NCBI GenBank assembly: GCA_017553785.1 | Contig: JAFZKD010000119.1 | Span: 1 to 64,000, forward strand | Direction of reading: 5' to 3' | Origin: Muribaculaceae bacterium | GTDB lineage: Bacteria; Bacteroidota; Bacteroidia; Bacteroidales; Muribaculaceae | DNA: 64,000 nt | In this document: piece by piece, positions 26,788-39,794 of the stretch | Layout of the letters: each line of letters starts with the position of its first letter | How positions within the stretch are numbered: position 1 is the first letter of the stretch | The notes under the pieces: model-generated | Told to the model about the DNA's origin: nothing | The model's input: the letters and a program-made list of their open reading frames with translations, nothing else | The model's database searches: none | Position numbers and translations under genes: made by a program

Positions 26788-29664
26788 CTATGCTCCAGCA
26801 AGAAGTTTGTCGATCAGTGCGGTCAAGTCATCGATGTTCACCTTGCCGTCACCATCCACATCAGCACCAGGATTACCGCTGGTGTTGCCTGACAGTAGCA
26901 TGTCGATGAGCGCTGTCACGTCATCGATGTTCACCTTGCCGTCGCCGTCAATATCGCCTGCTGTGATGGAACTGATGGCGACATTATCCACCGCGAAGTA
27001 ATCTCCAGTAGGATGAATGCTGCCGTCCTTGGTGTAACTCCACGTCAGCGTATGTGTGCCTGCAGGAATCTCAACAGTGTAGGTTTCCCAGTTATTCTGT
27101 TTTGCGCCATAGACGAATTTGTTTGTTCCGTCAATCGAGAACACGCACTGGTCATACATTGTTGACGAGCCTTCACCCCATGCCTTGAAATCAAAGGTCA
27201 GTGTGGTCTTCTTGGAAACGCTGACCGTGGCGGTCAATATTGAAGAGCTGCTGTGAACACCTGCATTGCCGGACTGAGCATAGGTCCTGCCGTTATCGGA
27301 CATTACGGTCCACGGGTAATCGGTGCTTGTCGAGAAACTGATATTACCTCCCGAGACATTCAATGCTTCGTCAATAGTGACTATACCCACTATATTGGTG
27401 AAGTTCTTCCAGCCGTACGCATTCTTGTATGCCGTCAGCGATGAACTGGGAACCATCAGTATTGCATTGCTATAGGTCGAACTTTTAAAGGCACTTGTGT
27501 AATCTATCGTGGGCGGCGTTTTAGCCAGACAAGTCACACTGGTCAACGGACTGTCGAAACCATAGGTGCCGATTGATGTCACACCCTTGCCTATAACCAC
27601 TGATGACAACGTGTTGCAATCACCAAAAGCGTTATACTCGATTGATTCCACATTGTCAGGGATGGTTACACTGGTCATTTTGTGACAATACCTGAAGGCA
27701 TGCTGACCAATGGATTTCACATTGCTGCCGATAGTGACCTTCGTCAGATTGGGACTTGACTGGAACGCATTATTGTCAATTCCTGTCACCTTGTAGGTCA
27801 CACCGCTATAGGTAACAGTGGCAGGAATGGTGATTGTACTGGCACTGTAACTGCCATAGCCCGTGTCCCTGTAGGTCACGCTTGCGGTGTTTGTACCAGT
27901 CTTCTTATAGTAGAGTCCATCCACATAGAAGTCAAAAGTGGTAATAGCCTCAATATTATTGAACTCACCCCAATAAGTATGTGAACGATAGGCGCTTATT
28001 GAACCACCGGGCACAACCAGGGTGACATCATCCAATGTATACTCACCAGTATAATCATCGTAATAGTAATGAACGAAAGTGTCAGAATATATAGTAGGAG
28101 GTGTCGTAGCGCGGCATTCCACATAGGTCGGCATTGTCCTGTAGAAGGCTCCGTCTTCAATCTCTGTCACACCTTTGCCTATTACGATGCTTTTCAATTC
28201 TGGGCAGAAGCTGAAACACCACCCCAAATAAGTAACTTTATCGGGAATGACAATGCTTTGCAGCCCTGTGTGACTGAATGCTTCATCACCGATGACCTCA
28301 AGGGAGTTGGGAAGTGTAACATCTGACAGTTCCGAACATTGGCAAAACGCCGCTACTCCAATTGTAGTGAGCGAATTACCAAAGGTCACACTTGATAAGC
28401 TTGAACAAAATTCAAATGCCCTTTCGCCTATTTCAGTCACGGAATTACCCATGGTGACACTTCTCAAGCTTGACTGCGTAAATGCGTTTTTGCCAATGTA
28501 GGTGACATTGTTAGTAATTGTCACCTCCGTGACATTTTCACCCGCAAAAGCCATTTCACCAATGCCTTTCACAGTATAGGTCGTTCCACCGTAAGTGACC
28601 GTGCCAGGAATACTGATTTCACCACTATAGTTGGCACCGGGGACGGCCTCGTCTTCACTTCCAGAAGCAACCACTTCAACTGTTGTGGCACTGGTCTTGG
28701 CATAAACAAGCCCATTGACCACAAAATCATAATGCCTTGAAGCAATAATTGTTGGGAAATTCTTCCAGTAGTTTGCCTGTTTGTAGCATAACACAGCCCA
28801 CGGTGTGGGTACCCACAGCTTGATGCCACTGTTGTTGAGCGTTGAGTAGAAAACATCGGCCTCCAATGTGGGAGGATTGACAGCCTCGCTGATCACGGTA
28901 GTCAACTTACTATTATAAGCGAACGCAAAACCTTCTATTGTGGTCAAATTAGATGGCAGAGTCACCTTTGTCAAATTGCTATAAACGAATGCTCCATGAG
29001 CAATAAAAGTCACCGTGGATGGTACAGTATAGCTTGTTCCGCTCTTAGCTGCGGGATAGGCGAGACACTTTGTCTTTGCCTTGTTAAACAGAACGCCATC
29101 TTTTGATGAGAAATAGGCGTTTGAGCTATTCACATTGATAGCAGTCAATGATGAGCAAGAATAAAACGGATTCTCGCCCATTGTCTGCACCGATGAGGGG
29201 ATTGTTACTGAAGTCAAGCCAGTGCCATTGAATGCACGCCAACCAATATTTACCAGTGTAGTGGGTAATGTGATTGACTTTATGCCGGAACAATAGCAGA
29301 AAGCTGCACTACCGATATTCTTCACATTGCCAAGGGACACTGAGGTTAATCCTGTGCAATCATAGAACGCATAGCCACCGATAGTTTCCACATTGGAGCC
29401 GATGGTCATGGAGGTAATTTTGGAACATCTGATGAAAGCTTCCGAACCAATCTCTGTTACCTTATATCCATTGGCATAATCGGGAATGGAATAGTTGCCG
29501 GATGGCGACGCAACGACATGACCAACAACCTTGGCCGTGGTTGAACTCGTGATGACAAACTGAAGATTGTTATAGGTGAAATCATAATCAACGGCGCTGG
29601 CGGATAGAGTCGTTGACAAATACACCACGAGGACGAGCAATTTAAGTAATAGTGATTTTTTCAT
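26788..29664 (-). CDS. BspA-like leucine-rich-repeat surface protein with C-terminal dockerin-like module
   Basis: 958 residues. A signal peptide (MKKSLLLKLLVLVVYLSTTLSASA) is followed by three blocks, each opening with a YDFxYNGLxY-type strand and then BspA/LRR_5 units (VTEIGSEAFIRCSKITSMTIGSNVETIGGYAF). A jelly-roll-like domain (about 785-890) comes next. The last 60 residues are two calcium loops, GDIDGDGKVNIDDVTALIDMLLSG and DVDGDGKVNIDDLTALIDKLL. There is no T9SS sorting domain after it. BspA-type LRR proteins mediate adhesion in oral and gut Bacteroidetes; function here is inferred. Single-gene unit with a good terminator. Confidence 0.88.
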   Translation of the reverse strand: MKKSLLLKLLVLVVYLSTTLSASAVDYDFTYNNLQFVITSSTTAKVVGHVVASPSGNYSIPDYANGYKVTEIGSEAFIRCSKITSMTIGSNVETIGGYAFYDCTGLTSVSLGNVKNIGSAAFCYCSGIKSITLPTTLVNIGWRAFNGTGLTSVTIPSSVQTMGENPFYSCSSLTAINVNSSNAYFSSKDGVLFNKAKTKCLAYPAAKSGTSYTVPSTVTFIAHGAFVYSNLTKVTLPSNLTTIEGFAFAYNSKLTTVISEAVNPPTLEADVFYSTLNNSGIKLWVPTPWAVLCYKQANYWKNFPTIIASRHYDFVVNGLVYAKTSATTVEVVASGSEDEAVPGANYSGEISIPGTVTYGGTTYTVKGIGEMAFAGENVTEVTITNNVTYIGKNAFTQSSLRSVTMGNSVTEIGERAFEFCSSLSSVTFGNSLTTIGVAAFCQCSELSDVTLPNSLEVIGDEAFSHTGLQSIVIPDKVTYLGWCFSFCPELKSIVIGKGVTEIEDGAFYRTMPTYVECRATTPPTIYSDTFVHYYYDDYTGEYTLDDVTLVVPGGSISAYRSHTYWGEFNNIEAITTFDFYVDGLYYKKTGTNTASVTYRDTGYGSYSASTITIPATVTYSGVTYKVTGIDNNAFQSSPNLTKVTIGSNVKSIGQHAFRYCHKMTSVTIPDNVESIEYNAFGDCNTLSSVVIGKGVTSIGTYGFDSPLTSVTCLAKTPPTIDYTSAFKSSTYSNAILMVPSSSLTAYKNAYGWKNFTNIVGIVTIDEALNVSGGNISFSTSTDYPWTVMSDNGRTYAQSGNAGVHSSSSILTATVSVSKKTTLTFDFKAWGEGSSTMYDQCVFSIDGTNKFVYGAKQNNWETYTVEIPAGTHTLTWSYTKDGSIHPTGDYFAVDNVAISSITAGDIDGDGKVNIDDVTALIDMLLSGNTSGNPGADVDGDGKVNIDDLTALIDKLLAGA

Positions 29665-31600: not shown

Positions 31601-32368
31601 TTATTCTAATCTGATGCGGACGGGACGAATGGGTTCCCCATTGGATCGGCTAACGAAGTCCAAGTCTGGGCCACTTGAACTGAAGTCCAGAGTGAAGACG
31701 ACGTCAGGATTGCCGGCTGCGAGCGTACGAGACCAATAGAAGCCCCATTTGGTGGTGTAAGTCGAATCATGATAACGTGTGCCGGTAACAGGCAAGAACA
31801 TCGTGTTCCCATTGGGACCAGTCACCAGTTGACCGTTCACGCCGTTGACCGATGTCCATGTCCAAGTGCAATTATTGATCAGTTCTTCTACTTGGATCCT
31901 GCTGGGAAGACACCAATTCTGTCCCCAAATCATATAGGCGGCGTCATCCTCAGGATCCAAATAATCCTTGTTATCAACAGTACCATAAGTGTCCACTGTG
32001 CAGTATTTTGTAATTGAGCGGTCGGTGCCGTTGCACCACTTGTAGGTCTCCCAGTCATAGTAATCCTTGGTTTCAAGTTCTCCCCAAGAGAAGTAGTCTC
32101 CACATTCCTCGGGGCTGTTGGCACCCACGTTCATCGTCGCCCACAGTGTGCCGCTGGGCAGGCCAAGGTCAACCCACTCGTGCTCATCGGGAGGGGTAAC
32201 GGGTTCATCTCCCCAAGTTCCTGTCAACAAGTAATCAATGAGAGCCGTGACATCCGAAATACTGACTTGACCGTCTTGATTCACATCACCACGCTCATAC
32301 TGCACGCCTGCGGTGAACGAGGCCAGCATCAACAATAACGCGATTAGTAAAGAAGTAGCTTTTTTCAT
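31601..32368 (-). CDS. Small surface protein: N-terminal dockerin-like unit plus FISUMP-type domain
   Basis: 255 residues. After a signal peptide (MKKATSLLIALLLMLASFTAG) comes a single calcium-loop unit (GDVNQDGQVSISDVTALIDYLLTG), then a Pro-rich linker and a domain opening EWVDLGLPSGTLWATMNVGA and SPEECGDYFSWGE. That domain is common in Bacteroidales surface proteins and resembles the Fibrobacter succinogenes major paralogous domain. It is unusual that the dockerin-like unit is N-terminal. Function unknown. A -7 box TATCTTTG is at 32417-32424 on the minus strand. Confidence 0.82.
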   Translation of the reverse strand: MKKATSLLIALLLMLASFTAGVQYERGDVNQDGQVSISDVTALIDYLLTGTWGDEPVTPPDEHEWVDLGLPSGTLWATMNVGANSPEECGDYFSWGELETKDYYDWETYKWCNGTDRSITKYCTVDTYGTVDNKDYLDPEDDAAYMIWGQNWCLPSRIQVEELINNCTWTWTSVNGVNGQLVTGPNGNTMFLPVTGTRYHDSTYTTKWGFYWSRTLAAGNPDVVFTLDFSSSGPDLDFVSRSNGEPIRPVRIRLE

Positions 32369-32509
32369 ATCACATCTATTTTTTAAAGGTTGGACACATA
32401 ATTATTGATTCTCCTGCAAAGATACAACATATTATCCGTTTTCATGCCACAAAACACCGTTTTTTAGGGGTTGCTGCTTTTTGACATGGTGGAAGAATTT
32501 GGAAGGTTG

Positions 32510-32517
32510 TAATTTTG
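32510..32517 (+). promoter_or_regulatory. -7 box before the phage-derived cassette
   Basis: TAATTTTG is a perfect TAnnTTTG. The nearest TTTG upstream (32480-32483) is 26 nt away, longer than ideal, so the promoter is only probable. Confidence 0.4.
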
Positions 32518-32555
32518 CGGCGTCAACAATGACACGGAATATTTTTGAACCTTAT

Positions 32556-33974
32556 ATGATTATCATGAAAACACCAACAACCATCGAACAACACTCCCGT
32601 GTGCTAAGGGCCGCCTACCAGGCATGGATGAATGCCGCAGGGCTCAGACAGGCGCGGTTAAGGAACAAGCGGTTCACTTACGGCGACCAGTGGGGCGACC
32701 TGGTGAAAGACAGCCAGGGACGCACGATGACCGAGGGCGAACACCTCGCCAGTCAAGGCTGCGAAAGCATCACCAACAATCTGATACGACAGTTGGTCAA
32801 GACCATCGTGGGTCGGTTCAGGAATCAGTACATCAAGTATGATGATGAGACGCCGCTGGCACAGGTCTCACAAGCCAACGAACTCGACGAACTCGACAGT
32901 CGGGCTTTGGAAGAGTTCTTGATATCAGGATGCTGTATCCAGCGCATTGACACCTGCCATGAGCCAGGAGAGCATGAGCACGTCAGGGTGGACAATGTCA
33001 ATGTGAACAAGCTGTTTGTCAACACCTTGGGAGATACCCGCGCCTGGGACTGTGAACTCATTGGCCAGTTGCATGACTTGAATATTGCCCAACTGCTGCG
33101 CCGGATAGCGCGCGGCAACCAGCGTAAGGCGGCATGGGTGAGGCGCTTGTACACCGACATGGCCGACAACCGTATTACCGACTTCACTTCAAGGCTGGGG
33201 GCTGACTCACAACTGGGGAGCGACTTCTGGCACGCCAGCGACGGCAAGTGCCGTGCTATCGAGGTCTGGACGCTCGAGAGTCGCGAAGTCATCGTCTGCC
33301 ACAACCGCCACGAAGGAAAACTCACCGTTGAGCCTGCCAGCGCATGGCAACGCATGAAAAACAAGCCCGAAATCTCTACCCAATGGGACATCGCCACAGT
33401 GTGGCATTGCCGATGGTTCACCCCTATGGGCGACCTGTTGGACGAATATGACTCACCCTGGGAGCATGGCAGCCATCCGTTCATCATCAAACTGTATCCG
33501 CTCACCGACGGAGAAGTGCACGCGGTCATAGAGGACATCATAGACACCCAAAAACATGTTAACCGCATGATCTCACTGTTGGACCAAGTGATGCGCTCAA
33601 GCGCCAAGGGAGTACTCCTGTTTCCCGAGACGGCATTGCCCGATGGATGGACCTGGGAAGATGCCAAACGATGCTGGTCGAGCGCTAACGGCCTGTTGCC
33701 TTATAACCCACGCTACGGCGAAGCCAAACCCGAGCAGATCAGTGCGAACAACAGCAACTTCGGCGCATATCAGATGATTGAGCTGCAGATGAAATTGTTT
33801 GAGGAAATCAGTGGCGTGAGCGGCGCCTTGCAGGGCAGGAATCCGACAGTTGACAGCGCTAATGCCTATCAGTTGCAGAGCGAGAACGCCAATATCGCGT
33901 TGAGCGATGTGTTTGACACATTTGAAGCGTTCCGTCGCCAGCGAGACCGCAAAATCGCTGCCATCATACACTAA
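32556..33974 (+). CDS. Phage portal-like protein
   Basis: About 472 residues from ATG 32556 (an ATG at 32565 is equally good; the frame is open to 32481 but that part overlaps the promoter region). The C-terminal half is the recognisable part: EDIIDTQKHVNRMISLLDQVM, then ALPDGWTWEDAKRCWSSANGLLPYNP, NNSNFGAYQMIELQMKLFEEISGVSGALQG and DSANAYQLQSENANIALSDVFDTFEAF. This resembles portal proteins of tailed phages, including crAss-like ones. A portal forms the ring through which DNA enters and leaves a capsid. It stops soon after DRKIAAIIH, so the extreme C terminus may be short. It heads a four-gene plus-strand cassette set between minus-strand host genes, without terminase, protease or tail genes. 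Confidence 0.72.
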   Translation: MIIMKTPTTIEQHSRVLRAAYQAWMNAAGLRQARLRNKRFTYGDQWGDLVKDSQGRTMTEGEHLASQGCESITNNLIRQLVKTIVGRFRNQYIKYDDETPLAQVSQANELDELDSRALEEFLISGCCIQRIDTCHEPGEHEHVRVDNVNVNKLFVNTLGDTRAWDCELIGQLHDLNIAQLLRRIARGNQRKAAWVRRLYTDMADNRITDFTSRLGADSQLGSDFWHASDGKCRAIEVWTLESREVIVCHNRHEGKLTVEPASAWQRMKNKPEISTQWDIATVWHCRWFTPMGDLLDEYDSPWEHGSHPFIIKLYPLTDGEVHAVIEDIIDTQKHVNRMISLLDQVMRSSAKGVLLFPETALPDGWTWEDAKRCWSSANGLLPYNPRYGEAKPEQISANNSNFGAYQMIELQMKLFEEISGVSGALQGRNPTVDSANAYQLQSENANIALSDVFDTFEAFRRQRDRKIAAIIH

Positions 33975-34007
33975 CAAGTTGTTATTCACATTAAATCATT
34001 GACAAAA

Positions 34008-34340
34008 ATGGAAGAAAAGAAAACCGAACGCCAGGAACCCGAGAGTTCACCTAGCCTCAACGAGCGCATCAGCGCCATGGGACTTGACGAGCAGACAGCC
34101 CGTCAACTTGAATCACTCACAGCAGGTATTGACCCCAGTAACGTCACTACCGAGTTGCTCACCACTCTAGCCCAAGGGGTAACCCACGACAACGATGTGG
34201 AGAACGCCGACGCGGCAGGCTACCTGAGAGGCCGCAACGAGAAAATCGAGGCTGTGCTGCATCCCCAGCCCGACTCACCTGATGAGAGCGAGTCCATCCC
34301 CGTGTTTCCACGTTACTGCCGGCGCAGCGTGTGGGACTGA
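34008..34340 (+). CDS. Small acidic protein in the phage-derived cassette
   Basis: About 110 residues from ATG 34008 (a TTG at 33999 is in frame). It is rich in Glu, Asp, Ser and Pro, with a predicted helix (SLNERISAMGLDEQTARQLESLTAG) and a disordered tail. No homolog is recognised. Its place between portal and capsid genes is where scaffold or head-maturation proteins usually lie, so a scaffold-type role is a guess from position. Spacing to the portal stop is 33 nt. Confidence 0.6.
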   Translation: MEEKKTERQEPESSPSLNERISAMGLDEQTARQLESLTAGIDPSNVTTELLTTLAQGVTHDNDVENADAAGYLRGRNEKIEAVLHPQPDSPDESESIPVFPRYCRRSVWD

Positions 34341-34422
34341 ACTGAGCCAACACTTTGATTAATGGTCCGAGACCAACATCTGTAAACTTTTATTTTTTCT
34401 TTAACTTTAAACTATTAAAAAC

Positions 34423-35829
34423 ATGAAATTCAACAAGTTTTTCAAGGCTGTTCGCTGGATGCGCAGCCACAAGAAGTTAATCATCTTCGCCATCATTGTT
34501 ATTCTCATCGCTATTCTCGCCTCGTGCATGGGCAACAGCGATCCTAACACTGCACTTGCCGTGGGCGCACTGATTGCAGGCATCGAGAACGGCAAGCACG
34601 TTGTAAACGGCCCGCTCACGACCGACCTGACGAACGAAGGCTCTCCCGAACTGCTACTGAATGAGATCGATCAGCAAATCGTGAAAATCCGCCCCATGTC
34701 CACGCCTATCGACCAAATTTCGCGCTATGCGGGTAGCAAACACGCCAACAGCATGGTCGTGGATTACTACAGCGTTGACACCAAACCCACCCAAACCAAG
34801 CTGGTAGGCGATGTAGCCGAGACCGAAGAGGTTGACGGTGAGGATAGTCCCAGCATCACCATCCAAACCCTGAATGACGAGATCTTTGACCCCACCGACA
34901 CCATCCTTGTCCAGGGCGTGTCGGGTTACAGCAGCAATGGCGCCGAAGAAGACAGTCAGGAGCTGATGCTCTACGTCATGAGCCGCACCAACGACGGCAT
35001 CACGGTGAAAGCTGTCAACGGCCCTACAGTGGACGGCGTGCCCAACTGTTTCCCCAATATTCCCAGCGGCGTCAATCTGGTGAGAATGGGACGTGCCGCC
35101 AGCGAGCTTGACGTGCAGTCGCCTCAGTTCGAGGCCTTGCCTACTAAGAGCCGGAACCTTTGCCAGATTTTCAAGATGCAGGTCGAGCAATCCACCCTGC
35201 AACGCCTTGCCAACAAGGAAGTGGGCTGGACCATGACCGACCAGGAGGAAGCAGCCATCTATGACATGCGCTTGGGCATGGAGAAGTCGTTCCTCTTTGG
35301 AGCTCCGCGCAAACTGTGGGACAACAACAAGAAGGAATATGTCTATTTCACCGGCGGCATCTGGAATCAGGCGGGTAAGACAGCGTATGTGGAGTCGTCA
35401 ACTGAGTTCAACGCCGATAAGATGGTGGAACTGATGCGTCAGGCCTTCACCGGAAACGCGGGCAGCAAACGCAAAATCCTCATCGGCGGCAGCGGACTCA
35501 TCAGCCGCATCAGCAAGCTTGATTATTCGCGCATCATCACCGCAGGGCAGCATGTGAGCAAGTGGGGCATCGATTTCACCGAGTTGCGCAGCAAGTTCGG
35601 TTGTCTCTACCTGTTGCTGAGCGAAGTGTTTGACGAGGTGGGCATGGAGGATGACGGTATCATCATTGATCCCGAGTATATCCAGAAGTACACCCACATC
35701 CCGTTCAGCACCGAGCAGCTCAACTTGAAGAAAAGCGGCGTGCGCAACGTTGACGCGCTGGTGATGACCGAGGCCTCGTGCCTGGTATTGCGTTACCCCA
35801 AGGCGCACCTGCGTGTCAGGACCCGATGA
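34423..35829 (+). CDS. SU10/DUF5309-like major capsid protein with a lipoprotein-like N terminus
   Basis: 468 residues. From about residue 60 it looks like an SU10-type (DUF5309-like) major capsid protein: NGPLTTDLTNEGSPELLLNEIDQQIVKIRPM, KHANSMVVDYYSVDTKP, then NLCQIFKMQVEQSTLQRLANKE, EEAAIYDMRLGMEKSFLFG, KILIGGSGLISRISK and an HK97-fold-like end. Unusually, the first 40 residues form a basic start (KFFKAVRWMRSHKK), a strongly hydrophobic run (LIIFAIIVILIAIL) and LASC, a textbook lipobox. A plain membrane anchor is the alternative. The 82-nt spacer upstream ends in an AT-rich leader typical of translated Bacteroidetes genes, which supports this start over an internal ATG at 34528. Stop overlaps the M15 gene start by 4 nt. 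Confidence 0.68.
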   Translation: MKFNKFFKAVRWMRSHKKLIIFAIIVILIAILASCMGNSDPNTALAVGALIAGIENGKHVVNGPLTTDLTNEGSPELLLNEIDQQIVKIRPMSTPIDQISRYAGSKHANSMVVDYYSVDTKPTQTKLVGDVAETEEVDGEDSPSITIQTLNDEIFDPTDTILVQGVSGYSSNGAEEDSQELMLYVMSRTNDGITVKAVNGPTVDGVPNCFPNIPSGVNLVRMGRAASELDVQSPQFEALPTKSRNLCQIFKMQVEQSTLQRLANKEVGWTMTDQEEAAIYDMRLGMEKSFLFGAPRKLWDNNKKEYVYFTGGIWNQAGKTAYVESSTEFNADKMVELMRQAFTGNAGSKRKILIGGSGLISRISKLDYSRIITAGQHVSKWGIDFTELRSKFGCLYLLLSEVFDEVGMEDDGIIIDPEYIQKYTHIPFSTEQLNLKKSGVRNVDALVMTEASCLVLRYPKAHLRVRTR

Positions 35830-36224
35830 AGCATTTCACGCTCAAGGAGCTCATCCGGTCGGCGACCGCTCAACGGCTAGGCATCAACAACACGCCGCCG
35901 GCCAGCGCTGTTAAGGCACTGCACGCACTGGTGGACAATGTGCTGGACCCGTTGAGGGATGCATGGGGCGGGCCCATCTGGGTCAATAGCGGATACCGCT
36001 GCGCTGAACTGAACAGACTTGTGGGCGGAACACCCTATAGCCAACACCAGAAAGGTGAGGCTGCCGACATCACCGTGGGATCCCGAAGCGCAAACCGCAG
36101 ACTGCTGGCCTTGATCAAGCGCCTCGACCTGCCTGTGGACCAATGCATCGACGAGAAAGGGTGCCGCTGGATCCATGTGAGCCACCGTAAAGGCCGCAAC
36201 CGCCGCCTGTACATGAAATTTTAG
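35826..36224 (+). CDS. M15-family peptidoglycan peptidase (phage-type)
   Basis: 132 residues from ATG 35826. The zinc-site pattern of M15 D-Ala-D-Ala peptidases is present: SGYRCAELNRLVGGTPYSQHQKGEAADI (Ser-x-His-x3-Gly-x-Ala-x-Asp) and WIHVSH. No signal peptide. In phages this class acts as endolysin or cuts cell wall during entry. Its start overlaps the capsid gene stop by ATGA, so the two are translationally coupled. The frame is open upstream to 35778 inside the capsid gene, but that part is not conserved. Confidence 0.88.
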   Translation: MKHFTLKELIRSATAQRLGINNTPPASAVKALHALVDNVLDPLRDAWGGPIWVNSGYRCAELNRLVGGTPYSQHQKGEAADITVGSRSANRRLLALIKRLDLPVDQCIDEKGCRWIHVSHRKGRNRRLYMKF

Positions 36225-36257
36225 TTGACATTCAACTAAAACTGATTAGTGATTAGT

Positions 36258-36290
36258 GAGGGCAAGACCGCTATCGATCCTGCCCTCGTT
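36258..36290 (+). terminator. Terminator of the phage-derived cassette
   Basis: GAGGGCA (36258-36264) pairs with TGCCCTC (36281-36287), 34 nt after the M15 stop, followed by GTTCTTTT. Confidence 0.65.
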
Positions 36291-36314: not shown

Positions 36315-39300
36315 CTACAAGGCTAAACGGAAACCAATGTTTCTATACCGATAATCTTTCGGTCCGTAATCTCGGGAAGACGATCTGCAGTAATAGGCCC
36401 AATGATAATAGCCACCACCACGAATGGCACTGTAGCTAGTATTGGAACCTACCGGATCAACTTGAGGCTCGCTGGTATATGTACCCAGATAATCTGAACA
36501 CCACTCCCAAATATTGCCACTCATGTCATACAAGCCCAACTCATTTGGTTTCTTTTGAGCGACTGGATGTGTTGATGCGATATCGCCGCCATCATAAGGG
36601 ATATTCCACTCATGATACTCATATCCCCACCAGGCGACCTCATTGATATCGTTACTGCCGGCATACTTATAGCCTTGACTCAAATTGCCACCACGCGCGG
36701 CAAATTCCCATTCTGCTTCGGTGGGCAAACGAAAATGCTCTCCTGTTATCTCGTTAAGGCGACTGATGAATTCCTCGCAATCATATATATTCACTTTGTC
36801 CACTGGTCTATCCAAGTCTCCCGTATAATAGCTGGGATTAGAACCCATGACAGCTAACCATAATCGCTGTGTCACTGTCGTCTCGCCTATACTGAAAGAC
36901 GACACCGTCACCTGGTGGGCTGGTTTCTCACCATCCAACGCCTCTGGTCCCTGGTCCTCGGTAGCGCCCATCATGTAGGTGCCGCCCTCAACCGGAATCA
37001 TCTTGAACTTCGCGCCACGCACGGCATAAACGCCTGGCTCCAATTCCTCAAAATGGTCAATCACTCCCAGGAGATAGTCAATGAGTGTTGTCAAATCCTG
37101 AACCGTCACAAAATGGTCATGATCCACGTCGGCCATAGCGACGTCAAATGGCGTGACCTCAACGCCCAACAGGTAGTCAATCAACGAAGTCACATCCGCA
37201 ATGCTGACAAAGCCGTCACAATTCACATCGCCCAGCATGAGATATACGGTCACCTCACATGAGTCGGGAGCAGCATAACCGTCAGCAGAGCCAACAGTAA
37301 TTGTCGTTTTACCCGGGGTGATACCCATCACCTGAATCACACCGTTGGCTACACGGGCCGCTGCCACGTCGGGATTGCTCGACGTCACTGCCAGATCGGT
37401 GCTGACGGGTGTCATGGTGGGAGTCAAGATAATCATGTGGTTCGGCATTACCGAGTCTTGATGATGGTCAAGCGATATATAGATAAAGCGGTTAACCACA
37501 ATCACATGGCACACAGCCTGCTGTTCCTGACACGCAGCGATGATATCGCACTCGCCCGGCCCGACAGCCGTTACCAATCCATCTTCTACCGTAGCCACAT
37601 CCGGGTCTGTCGTTGTCCAGGTGATGTCCTTGTATGTGGTATTTTCGGGTTCAACCGTCGCTGTGAGTTGCTCGGTCGTCCCTGTCTCAAGCATCAGGCT
37701 TTCTTGACTGATAGTCACTGACGTGGGAAGGATGACGTCAACATTGATATGGCACCTCGCACGCTTATCAAGATAAACAGCAATGATGTCACATTCACCC
37801 TTGCCCACGGCTGTCACTCCTCCTTCGCCATACACAGATGCTACGTCATTATCAGTTGACACCCATACAATCTCGGCAGGAGAAGCGTTTTCCGGCTCCA
37901 CTATCGCTTTGAGAAGCGATAGGTCACCAACTATAAGATCGGCACTACTGGTATTCAAAGACATTGACACGGGTTCTACAGCATCATTTTCCATGTTCAG
38001 GAAATCGTTCCAATAGTCTGCCACAAAATAGGAAGCGAACGAGGTGGACGGCATGTGCAGAACTGCGTCGGTGATAACGAAGGTGTTGTCGTCACACACC
38101 GGGGGAGTCGAGCCGAAAGCGTAGATGACCGAGGGAGACAGTTTCATTCCTTCGATCGACGTCACCGCGCCGCCAACGTACAAGGTGTCCATTGTTGCCG
38201 ACAACGCTCCACCCTGCCACGGGCCCGAACCGGTTATATATAAGCCTTGGAGAGAGAGATTGTCGAACGCTCCCTCACCCACACGGGTCAAGGTCACAGG
38301 TATCGTCATGCAGGTCAGCCTTTGGAATCCGGCGAGTGCCATTCGGCCGATACCGGTCACCGAATAGGTCTTTTGCCCTTCATATATCTTATGATGAGTG
38401 ACCGTAGCAGGAATAATCAGGTTGCCACCCAACACGGCATCTTCGGTCACATAGTTCACTGTCGCCTGATCGCCATTCACCTTATAGTAGATACCACCAT
38501 CCACAAAGTCATATCCACCGCCAATAAATTTATTGCCGTTAGTGTAATACAACTTGTTATTCAACAAGGGCGGTTTAATGGTATAGTAATCATAAGGCAC
38601 CGTGATGTCCCAACTGATGAGGTCAGGGTTGACAGTACCTTCACATCCCTCAACCATTGTGGAATAGTTATAACCGGCTCCAGTCCACTCGGCGCTATAG
38701 TTCACCCAACAGCCAACACCATAGTAGTAATACTCGGTTGTGTCAACATAATCCCAGAAGCCCTGCGCACGCCAATACATCCGACCATCCTCACGGATAT
38801 CCATATCGTTGCAGAACATGCCCGAGCCATAGATGTTCCAAATAAAGACTGTCGTGTCAAAAGCCTGCTGCAGATACACCTTAGCGACCTTGGTCACAGT
38901 ATCAGTAACCCAGAACTCGTCACCCTCAACCCACGGGTAATTGTCCTTGGGCGTTGCGATAACCTCCTGAAACTCATGTTCACCGTTAGCTGGCAAGAAA
39001 TAAGCGATCGAGAACACAGGAGATGTCGTGACGACCGTGTCACGTGAAATCACTGCACCTGTCGAAACCGAAGAGACCGTGATGTAATTCTCGAAGTAAT
39101 AAAGAAATCCTGATTCAAACCAAAATGAGCCATCGTCACCAGCAAATCCGAAAGACTCGTCATCCAAGTCGTGATTGACCATATAGTAATCAGGGAACAC
39201 ATACATCTTCTGCACGGTATCGGTCTTAATGCCTGATGTCACCGACGAACTGGTGCGTGTACCCATGAATTTATATCTGATTCCCACATGGAAATTTATT

Positions 39301-39794
39301 TCATCATCATTGCAATACACCCTGAACGGCAAGTCATAGCCGTTGTAGAAGTTTCGGGCCACCAATTCGCCTTCCACATCACCACGCTCGACAGTAGAGA
39401 TCCATCCGCCGACATCATAAGGATCCTGAGGCTCGTATTCAATATAACCACTGGAATTAATGCTCCAATCATTTAAATCGGTGAACACCAACCGTTCTCC
39501 TAGCAGTAACTCTTCAGTAAGCCACCCTTCCCGAACTTGCCTATCGGTAAGCAGACTGTGCAACAGTGAGAAATTGCGTTCTCTCAATTCCTTGGGAGAT
39601 ATGGCATTGACATGATTGGCAAGCGCCGGTGCCATCAGCTTTTTTGACACGCTGTTGGTGGGCTTGAGCACTTTGGGTTGTGCGCTTCTTGACTGCTTCG
39701 CTTTCTCAAGAAGTGCCTCATTGACCTGTGGCTGGGCAGACAATACCGCAATACCAGTACAAATGATGAACAATAGGGTTAATAATCTTTTCAT
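36315..39794 (-). CDS. Large multidomain surface protein: LRR-type, Big2, dockerin-like and FGE-sulfatase-like domains
   Basis: 1,159 residues with a signal peptide (MKRLLTLLFIICTGIAVLSAQ). In order: a unique N-terminal half (about 22-450), a short BspA-like stretch (TGIGRMALAGFQRLTCMTIP), two Big2 Ig-like domains (about 600-775, ITWTTTDPDVATVEDGLVTAVGPG), a third Ig-like segment, two calcium-loop units (about 851-911, GDVNCDGFVSIADVTSLIDYLLG) and an FGE/SUMF1-like domain (about 928 to the end, RLPTEAEWEFAARGG, GLYDMSGNIWEWCSDY). The domain ends NIGFRLAL where active formylglycine enzymes carry FRC, and only one of the catalytic-region cysteines is seen, so it is probably a binding fold, not an active enzyme. 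A consensus promoter is at 39862-39892. Confidence 0.87.
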   Translation of the reverse strand: MKRLLTLLFIICTGIAVLSAQPQVNEALLEKAKQSRSAQPKVLKPTNSVSKKLMAPALANHVNAISPKELRERNFSLLHSLLTDRQVREGWLTEELLLGERLVFTDLNDWSINSSGYIEYEPQDPYDVGGWISTVERGDVEGELVARNFYNGYDLPFRVYCNDDEINFHVGIRYKFMGTRTSSSVTSGIKTDTVQKMYVFPDYYMVNHDLDDESFGFAGDDGSFWFESGFLYYFENYITVSSVSTGAVISRDTVVTTSPVFSIAYFLPANGEHEFQEVIATPKDNYPWVEGDEFWVTDTVTKVAKVYLQQAFDTTVFIWNIYGSGMFCNDMDIREDGRMYWRAQGFWDYVDTTEYYYYGVGCWVNYSAEWTGAGYNYSTMVEGCEGTVNPDLISWDITVPYDYYTIKPPLLNNKLYYTNGNKFIGGGYDFVDGGIYYKVNGDQATVNYVTEDAVLGGNLIIPATVTHHKIYEGQKTYSVTGIGRMALAGFQRLTCMTIPVTLTRVGEGAFDNLSLQGLYITGSGPWQGGALSATMDTLYVGGAVTSIEGMKLSPSVIYAFGSTPPVCDDNTFVITDAVLHMPSTSFASYFVADYWNDFLNMENDAVEPVSMSLNTSSADLIVGDLSLLKAIVEPENASPAEIVWVSTDNDVASVYGEGGVTAVGKGECDIIAVYLDKRARCHINVDVILPTSVTISQESLMLETGTTEQLTATVEPENTTYKDITWTTTDPDVATVEDGLVTAVGPGECDIIAACQEQQAVCHVIVVNRFIYISLDHHQDSVMPNHMIILTPTMTPVSTDLAVTSSNPDVAAARVANGVIQVMGITPGKTTITVGSADGYAAPDSCEVTVYLMLGDVNCDGFVSIADVTSLIDYLLGVEVTPFDVAMADVDHDHFVTVQDLTTLIDYLLGVIDHFEELEPGVYAVRGAKFKMIPVEGGTYMMGATEDQGPEALDGEKPAHQVTVSSFSIGETTVTQRLWLAVMGSNPSYYTGDLDRPVDKVNIYDCEEFISRLNEITGEHFRLPTEAEWEFAARGGNLSQGYKYAGSNDINEVAWWGYEYHEWNIPYDGGDIASTHPVAQKKPNELGLYDMSGNIWEWCSDYLGTYTSEPQVDPVGSNTSYSAIRGGGYYHWAYYCRSSSRDYGPKDYRYRNIGFRLAL

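Follow-up and report, generated by a model that had tools for sequence, protein, structure and literature searches.

The subject of this analysis is a 64,000-nt stretch of DNA (in the following, the window) from a Muribaculaceae bacterium (GenBank assembly GCA_017553785.1, contig JAFZKD010000119.1, positions 1 to 64,000). Four phage-type genes in it, encoding a portal protein, a small acidic protein, a major capsid protein and an M15 peptidase, form a cassette. With a probability of roughly three in four, this cassette represents the head operon of a DNA-packaging particle which is derived from a phage, domesticated, vertically inherited and similar to a gene transfer agent, and whose genes are dispersed over the chromosome. 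The gene set, its dispersal, its family-wide conservation, purifying selection and promoter/operator elements common to unlinked operons point to this reading. The sequence features expected of a gene transfer agent appear to be present, i.e., genes for capsid, portal and terminase, inheritance and scattering of these genes, and no replication genes.

Features of the cassette:

32475..32517, plus strand: shared promoter-like element, consisting of TGCTTTTTGACATGGTGG (32475-32492) and the -7 box TAATTTTG (32510-32517); one of 61 matches to the pattern given below
32565..33974, plus strand: portal protein, 469 amino acids (aa); PF16510, phrog_156, PDB 8jov
34008..34340, plus strand: small acidic protein, putatively scaffold-like by position; phrog_22323
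34423..35829, plus strand: major capsid protein, SU10/HK97-type; PF17236, PDB 9in6; hydrophobic segment at residues 19-37
35826..36224, plus strand: M15 peptidase, probable lysis enzyme; PF08291, phrog_894 endolysin
36258..36287, plus strand: terminator-like stem-loop followed by a T-rich tail; fold -15.4 kcal/mol, not listed in the consensus scan

Gene content of the cassette

The open reading frames (ORFs) confirm a preliminary description of the window in that four intact plus-strand genes are located between minus-strand host genes (31601-32368 and 36315-39794). The identities proposed there for portal, capsid and M15 peptidase were recovered by the Pfam models P22_portal (E 1.6e-18), SU10_MCP (E 7.5e-51) and Peptidase_M15_3 (E 8.6e-21), and the ATGA overlap it mentioned joins the capsid and M15 genes (35826-35829). 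Its portal start, TTG 32481, is probably incorrect; since this codon falls within the promoter-like element, translation more likely begins at ATG 32565 (or 32556). For the small protein, ATG 34008 is the probable start. The clean terminator of the preliminary description stands in part: the stem-loop followed by GTTCTTTT fits a terminator, but is missing from the list of the consensus scan.

The portal matched phrog_156 with E 1e-41, and a portal profile (alignment A8) matched the portal of PDB 8jov with E 1.2e-6. In this alignment, the protein is C-terminally truncated relative to phage portals, and all eight aligned portals of the genus are without at least about 130 C-terminal aa of the phage proteins. 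The capsid matched a major head family of the PHROGs (E 8.3e-10) beside a stronger, unnamed family, and its profile (alignment A6) matched the major capsid protein of PDB 9in6 (E 2.7e-8). For the M15 peptidase, the match to the endolysin family phrog_894 had an E-value of 2.8e-35; the motif SxHxxGxAxD and the subsequent H were retained in 36/36 tabulated M15 proteins (35 of the genus and that of G081; genomes, loci and contigs are given as G, L and C numbers).

The small protein matched phrog_22323 weakly (E 0.0051), which is the family of the protein encoded immediately 5' of the capsid in two Bacteroides phages. Because of this kinship, and because residues 108-209 of the phage protein gp48 (259 aa) match four of its relatives (1.6e-5 to 7.8e-5, among the matches listed), the small protein is probably a shortened remnant of the phage protein in scaffold position. 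Its position suggests a scaffold role.

The capsid of the window starts with a strongly hydrophobic stretch (34477-34533) with a lipobox-like LASC, which is unusual in major capsid proteins. Among the 52 genus capsids whose N-terminus could be scored, this end was hydrophobic in 50 and lipobox-like in 39; the capsids of G016 and G027 start too late to include it. This feature is weaker in two related phage capsids and is retained in most relatives. Membrane-linked assembly through the capsid N-terminus is possible.

The terminase locus

A terminase had been described as absent. This is correct for the locus, but the genome has an intact terminase gene of the same phage lineage on another contig (C49), directly 3' of a gene for a 666-aa gp33-related protein (phrog_32516, E 1.6e-11; gp33 family profile versus phage gp33, 98.4% probability). 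The mistake was a natural one because the search of this genome with one generic Pfam terminase model gave no match; Pfam models failed to recognise the terminase of this system. The query used here was an alignment (A1) of two Bacteroides phage terminases and one prophage terminase. With this profile search, a terminase relative, mostly single and intact, was found in the same genome and in 56 of the 60 remaining genus genomes; G023, G031, G051 and G057 gave no match. Loss of the terminase is ruled out by its presence at another locus in these 57 of 61 genomes.

The residues which we take to be the ATPase motifs (KARQWG, ESTANG) and the nuclease motifs (D, E, DD) were invariant in an alignment of 11 terminases (eight of the genus, G081, G087 and one phage), and the terminase profile (A5) matched T4 gp17 with E 2.1e-14. 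The proteins gp33 and gp45, the latter encoded by an adaptor-sized phage gene, had no credible match among the PDB sequences; by position and size, they are possible candidates for a nozzle (gp33) and an adaptor (gp45) of a short, podovirus-type tail.

In records of Bacteroides phages, the terminase large subunit is annotated as tail spike protein (L086:12873-14987 and L088:40117-42144); according to PHROG and PDB profile matches, this homologue is a terminase. A second, more distant terminase of 605-641 aa was seen in five genomes of the genus (G024, G033, G035, G037 and G059; L126, L127).

Related phages

In the phage collection, capsid and portal matched only three Bacteroides phages, with 35-40% identity. 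Homologous capsid, portal and terminase genes are present in all three, BKO1-TP3 (PQ571269), BF1-TP2 (PQ571263) and BS-TP4 (PQ571277), and relatives of gp33, gp45 and gp48 link the system to BKO1-TP3 and BF1-TP2. In contrast to the cassette, the phages have complete genomes of 64-68 kb and a longer portal, and BKO1-TP3 is annotated with an integrase, a repressor and a replication initiation protein. The 64-kb window was compared with all ORFs of BKO1-TP3, including integrase and replication, and with 50 of the 68 kb of BF1-TP2, and only portal and capsid matched at E 1e-4. Similarly, only terminase and gp33 matched in the 20 kb around the terminase of the same genome (E 1e-3). By this comparison, the particle genes appear to have no phage replication or integration genes beside them, as is typical of gene transfer agents. 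Nor does the sequence seem to contain a contiguous phage genome with integrase, replication and tail modules, as expected for a temperate phage or prophage and unlike the situation in G042 and G079. Among viral contigs, the terminase of this genome as a single query gave no match and the capsid query gave one.

Conservation in genus, family and order

The genus was sampled with 61 genomes, many of them incomplete assemblies, and the family with 247 genomes from 30 genera. Capsid and portal genes were each found in 59/61 genomes of the genus (no capsid in G020 and G033, no portal in G020 and G040). In the family, capsid, terminase and portal were present in 226, 227 and 231 of the 247 genomes, respectively, each in 29 of the 30 genera; the corresponding numbers for the 170 good assemblies are 161, 161 and 163. 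Outside the genus, 3 of 40 genomes (G079, G081 and G087), each of another family of the order, matched capsid, portal and terminase. The genes of G079 are clustered and prophage-like, those of G081 and G087 are single phage genes or small groups among host genes.

Several single loci deserve mention. G033 has kept portal, small gene and terminase, and no capsid was found in it. The capsid 3' end and M15 are partially duplicated in L042 (5096-5795; G037:C8); a DNA-methyltransferase-like stretch separates this second copy from the intact cassette, about 3.2 kb away. The contig L085, listed as viral in IMG/VR, carries a host portal-small-capsid locus, in which the capsid gene is shortened, and adjoining ORFs which resemble tail fibres by eye. 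Both the genus and the order also harbour prophage genes of the parent phage type (L084/L092 in G042:C41, L081 in G079, and L082 on a 5-kb contig of G008); in G042 and G079, many Bacteroides phage genes match together. For the 864-aa internal virion protein of G081, no match was obtained in 60 of the 61 genus genomes, the single match being a giant ORF in G029.

Dispersal and clustering

In the clade of the window, portal, small gene and capsid were contiguous in 25/25 relatives (L021-L045), with M15 adjoining in 22, which exceeds what chance would produce. In the sister clade, the genes form separate loci among host genes, namely small gene plus capsid, portal (usually with M15), terminase, and gp45. 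Portal and M15 are about 4-5 kb from the capsid in G039 and G015; gp33, gp45 and portal lie together in G051, and M15 adjoins the terminase in G046. In the complete genome G266 (one contig of 3.3 Mb), terminase (0.94 Mb), portal (1.36 Mb) and capsid (1.89 Mb) are separated by 420-960 kb, too far for joint packaging in one particle, as in a gene transfer agent.

Clustered versions exist as well. In G142, which belongs to another genus, a gp33-like gene, a scaffold-like stretch, capsid, gp45 and portal are contiguous, and the terminase follows 5 kb further on. The 9.4-kb IMG/VR contig L238, which is overlapped by L239, carries gp33-like gene, terminase, scaffold-like gene, capsid, gp45 and portal on one strand. 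Because G142 and L238 hold the core clustered, we infer that the six genes formed a single ancestral unit which was scattered later. The preliminary description had named directly neighbouring terminase or tail genes in close relatives as a sign of a recent prophage remnant. Such adjacency does exist in this other genus and on this one IMG/VR contig, but both have the core with a portal of the short type and represent no recent prophage.

In most of the sister-clade genomes with a detected M15 gene, this gene was beside the portal. Its neighbours in G081 encode a membrane protein of 78 aa on one side and a lipoprotein-like protein of 141 aa on the other, which by eye, with no support from family models, look like a holin and a spanin; a lysis enzyme would have such a context. 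A particle delivering a wall hydrolase, as considered in the preliminary description, is not favoured, given M15 genes beside portal or terminase or between such holin- and spanin-like genes.

Selection and shared history

The ratio of non-synonymous to synonymous substitution rates (dN/dS), which had been suggested as a check, was computed with the NG86 method for pairs with dS < 2; it saturates for distant pairs and the medians are, hence, rough. The gene tables drawn from the fetched loci contained 17 genus genomes for terminase, 13 for gp33, 20 for gp45, 35 for M15 and 47 for portal. All seven genes had dN/dS below 1, the highest single value being 0.97 (small gene). Medians were 0.226 (portal), 0.44 (small gene), 0.234 (capsid), 0.181 (M15), 0.365 (gp33), 0.328 (gp45) and 0.262 (terminase; 0.247 without the prophage copy of G042 and the second copy of G035). 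In the closest pairs, the values were 0.064 (portal), 0.034 (capsid), 0.16 (small gene) and 0.133 (M15).

Distances were compared gene to gene in Mantel tests, from which the same two terminases of G042 and G035 were excluded. They correlated in 20 gene pairs with r from 0.61 to 0.97, e.g., 0.926 for capsid and terminase (12 taxa), 0.948 for portal and terminase (14 taxa), 0.931 for portal and capsid outside the clade of the window (17 taxa), 0.806 for portal and gp45 (15 taxa) and 0.735 for capsid and gp45 (19 taxa). The weakest correlation was that of terminase and gp45 (r 0.61, six taxa), for which 24 of 999 permutations were as high. A tree of 167 terminases was computed from the best 80 of 512 confirmed genome loci (79 terminases read) and the best 80 of the viral loci listed. 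The 79 genome-derived terminases, together with that of the window's own genome, the second copy of G035 and those of G142, G081 and G087, form a clade with support 1.0, in which 2/79 viral-contig terminases (L238 and L239) are included. These data argue for vertical inheritance and long-term conservation under selection, as in gene transfer agents.

On the same data, it is very improbable that the cassette is a decaying prophage remnant or a phage satellite. Phage ancestry is clear, the identity to the Bacteroides phages is 35-40% and some copies are broken, which speaks for a remnant. Against this stand mostly single, intact copies which are near-universal in the family, purifying selection, a partly conserved host neighbourhood, the shared history of unlinked genes, and the BKO1-TP3 integrase, which is unmatched in the window. 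An isolated decayed prophage is ruled out by the family-wide, mostly intact single copies and by selection. A mobile satellite or plasmid gene was likewise rejected: only one weak plasmid match was obtained (23% identity), and up to 16 of the 28 clade loci have host genes of the window in their fetched flanks. The domestication proposed in the preliminary description is supported by the conserved, mostly single and intact copies, the selection and the partly conserved neighbourhood.

Promoter elements common to unlinked operons

In the clade of the window, the same element, GCYTTTTG NNN TKGYG N17-21 TANNTTTG, precedes both the portal operon and the gp33-terminase operon. The 206 fetched loci (3.25 Mb, mainly flanks of these genes and not random genome) contained 61 matches, 27 before portal, 34 before gp33 and none elsewhere. 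Five gp33 loci had been fetched twice, which leaves 56 distinct matches in 27/29 portal loci (window and L085 included) and 29/36 gp33 loci of the clade. When the spacing between CTTTTTG and TANNTTTGC was varied from 15 to 35, 27 bases gave 50 hits and 26 bases gave five; all other spacings gave 0-3 each. The gp33 promoter of the window's own genome is one base off the pattern and not among the 61. The full pattern was also absent from another 375 kb of G018, where a single loose hit precedes an unrelated gene of ATPase-like type.

In the sister clade, the full pattern was absent from the fetched loci, and the 27-base spacing occurred once, before the portal of G012. Other elements are found there 5' of unlinked operons, and these are more alike within than between genomes: the mean similarity within genomes was 0.549 (25 pairs) versus 0.430 (sd 0.019) with shuffled labels (0/2000). 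This permutation test comprised 73 operons with a recognised -7 box (portal 26, small gene 18, gp45 17, gp33 6, M15 3, terminase 3). In the clade of the window, the mean was 0.640 within genomes (five pairs) and 0.558 between them. Such co-variation is the pattern which a dedicated, co-evolving regulator would leave. The terms 'stand-alone' and 'relic', used earlier for the cassette, are not supported: a terminase and a second phage structural gene are retained elsewhere, with intact motif residues and, in the clade, a promoter element common to both operons.

The shared element also bears on two alternatives in which no DNA is packaged. The retention of an HK97-type capsid in a host operon would be compatible with a virus-derived, encapsulin-like protein compartment. 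However, an encapsulin would have an HK97 shell and cargo and neither portal nor terminase, whereas here a portal gene is adjacent and a terminase occurs in the same genomes; portal and motif-intact terminase are conserved and share the promoter element, and besides M15 no cargo enzyme is evident. A compartment of this type is thus highly unlikely. Interference of the head proteins with related phages, i.e., a defence without particle by dominant-negative truncated portal, capsid or terminase, seems improbable as well. The shortened C-termini of the eight aligned genus portals and the parent-type prophage genes in the same genus (G042, G008) would be in line with it, but terminase and M15 motif residues are intact, a lysis enzyme has been kept along with several different particle genes, and promoter elements are common across the loci, as for one product.

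Comparison with known gene transfer agents

RcGTA, CcGTA and BaGTA consist of phage-derived head and packaging genes which are fixed in host chromosomes, vertically inherited and devoid of a replication module. The system described here is like them in these respects; it differs in its SU10-type capsid and P22-type portal lineage, in its phylum and in its several distant small loci. FpGTA of Faecalibacterium, according to excerpts of PMC12946183, also belongs to a gut bacterium, occupies more than one locus and includes an endolysin, and a podovirus-like gene content is claimed for it. It is found in Bacillota, comprises two operons of 10.5 and 5.5 kb, and particles and proteomics have been presented (same excerpts), whereas the present genes belong to Bacteroidota, occur in 29/30 sampled genera of the family and lie up to 960 kb apart. 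In contrast to all four, the present system is known from genes alone.

The hosts of characterised gene transfer agents named in excerpts of PMC12946183 include no Bacteroidota, and lateral transduction in Bacteroides is reported. In excerpts of PMC7667829, transduction-like coverage is described for a mouse gut sample, with 83 contigs showing the pattern assigned to Bacteroidetes, which is compatible with, but not specific for, the system proposed here. A literature search, covering titles and abstract openings among the matches listed (most subscription papers and preprints were outside it), yielded no report of a gene transfer agent in Bacteroidota and no paper combining Muribaculaceae with a gene transfer agent. 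Phage ancestry, phylum and extent of scattering distinguish the system from those described.

PBSX of Bacillus subtilis is one defective prophage at a single place, unlike the dispersed genes here. It packages host DNA without transferring it, as stated in excerpts of PMC12946183 and PMC7667829, and would resemble the present system as a domesticated element if host DNA is packaged here, too. By analogy, the domesticated particle might package host DNA yet serve as a bacteriocin-like killer or lysis device. A lysis-type enzyme kept in 42/61 genomes of the genus and the failure to identify a receptor-binding or tail-fibre gene speak for this function. DNA packaging, as implied by the kept terminase and portal, would be needless for a pure killer, and none of the loci viewed had a recognisable sheath gene, although no search aimed at sheath genes was made. 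On the whole, we consider such a device unlikely.

Proposed particle and points against it

The preferred reading, a particle similar to a gene transfer agent, would work as follows. The locus in the window would provide portal, scaffold remnant, capsid and M15 lysis enzyme, and the second locus, on the other contig, the gp33-like phage structural protein and the terminase large subunit. A dedicated regulator, either an activator or an alternative sigma factor, would read the shared element and turn the loci on together in some cells; this regulator was not found. Capsid, short portal and scaffold remnant would assemble into a procapsid, and the terminase, having no phage genome of its own, would package host chromosomal DNA. 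The M15 enzyme would then release the particles by lysis.

The following points weigh against this reading. All evidence is sequence; particles and packaged DNA are predicted from it, and delivery of the DNA to other cells is a possibility. The assembly of the window's own genome is 80% complete with 5% contamination; the same loci recur in better genomes. The pattern of the promoter element was drawn up after viewing the same sequences, and hence demonstrates specificity and sharing, not independent discovery; genome-wide base composition could contribute to the similarity of elements within genomes. M15 was found in only 42/61 genomes of the genus (E 1e-25). The gp45 gene was found in 27/61 genomes, all outside the clade of the window, in which neither a phage-led profile (61 genomes) nor a sister-clade-led profile (37 genomes) detected it, and 3/14 gp45 genes of the genus contain a stop. 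Broken capsid copies occur in G007 and G015, and one stop each was found in the capsid of G042, the portals of G004 and G054 and the terminases of G016, G040 and G054; the portals of G031 and G046 are partial. Neither a small terminase nor a receptor-binding protein was identified in the genus. Both gp33 and gp45 are phage protein families of unannotated function; gp33 was not detected next to the terminase in three sister-clade loci (G010, G015 and G039) or in 19/80 genome terminase loci, some of which are cut by contig ends. Finally, some family matches are of the prophage type: additional portals with a length of 650-740 aa and the weak capsid matches of genus g70 are probably prophages or other types.

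Flanking host genes

A repetitive surface-type protein is encoded at 26788-29664 (by eye). Both genes bordering the cassette (31601-32368 and 36315-39794) contain dockerin-like segments, and one also has Big_2 and FGE-sulfatase domains. Of the 28 clade loci, at most five share these surface-type and dockerin-like genes.

Implications for the family

We lean slightly towards a wider proposal, according to which nearly all Muribaculaceae and at least two other families of Bacteroidales make an undescribed gene transfer agent with a capsid of SU10-type and a portal of P22-type ancestry. Its scattered core of six genes would be kept functional by one co-evolving regulator with a lineage-specific operator at each locus, and assembly at the inner membrane via the capsid N-terminus may occur. 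Ordinary prophage annotation may miss the system, as its terminase is unrecognised by Pfam and a homologue is annotated as tail spike. Muribaculaceae are abundant in the mouse gut. Their abundance in specific-pathogen-free (SPF) mice is stated in an excerpt of PMC10892684, and many of the close relatives found here derive from ruminants. If the proposal is true, there would be a hidden route of gene exchange in the habitats of Muribaculaceae, and a domesticated virus would have persisted after its break-up in the chromosome, united by a shared regulatory signal.

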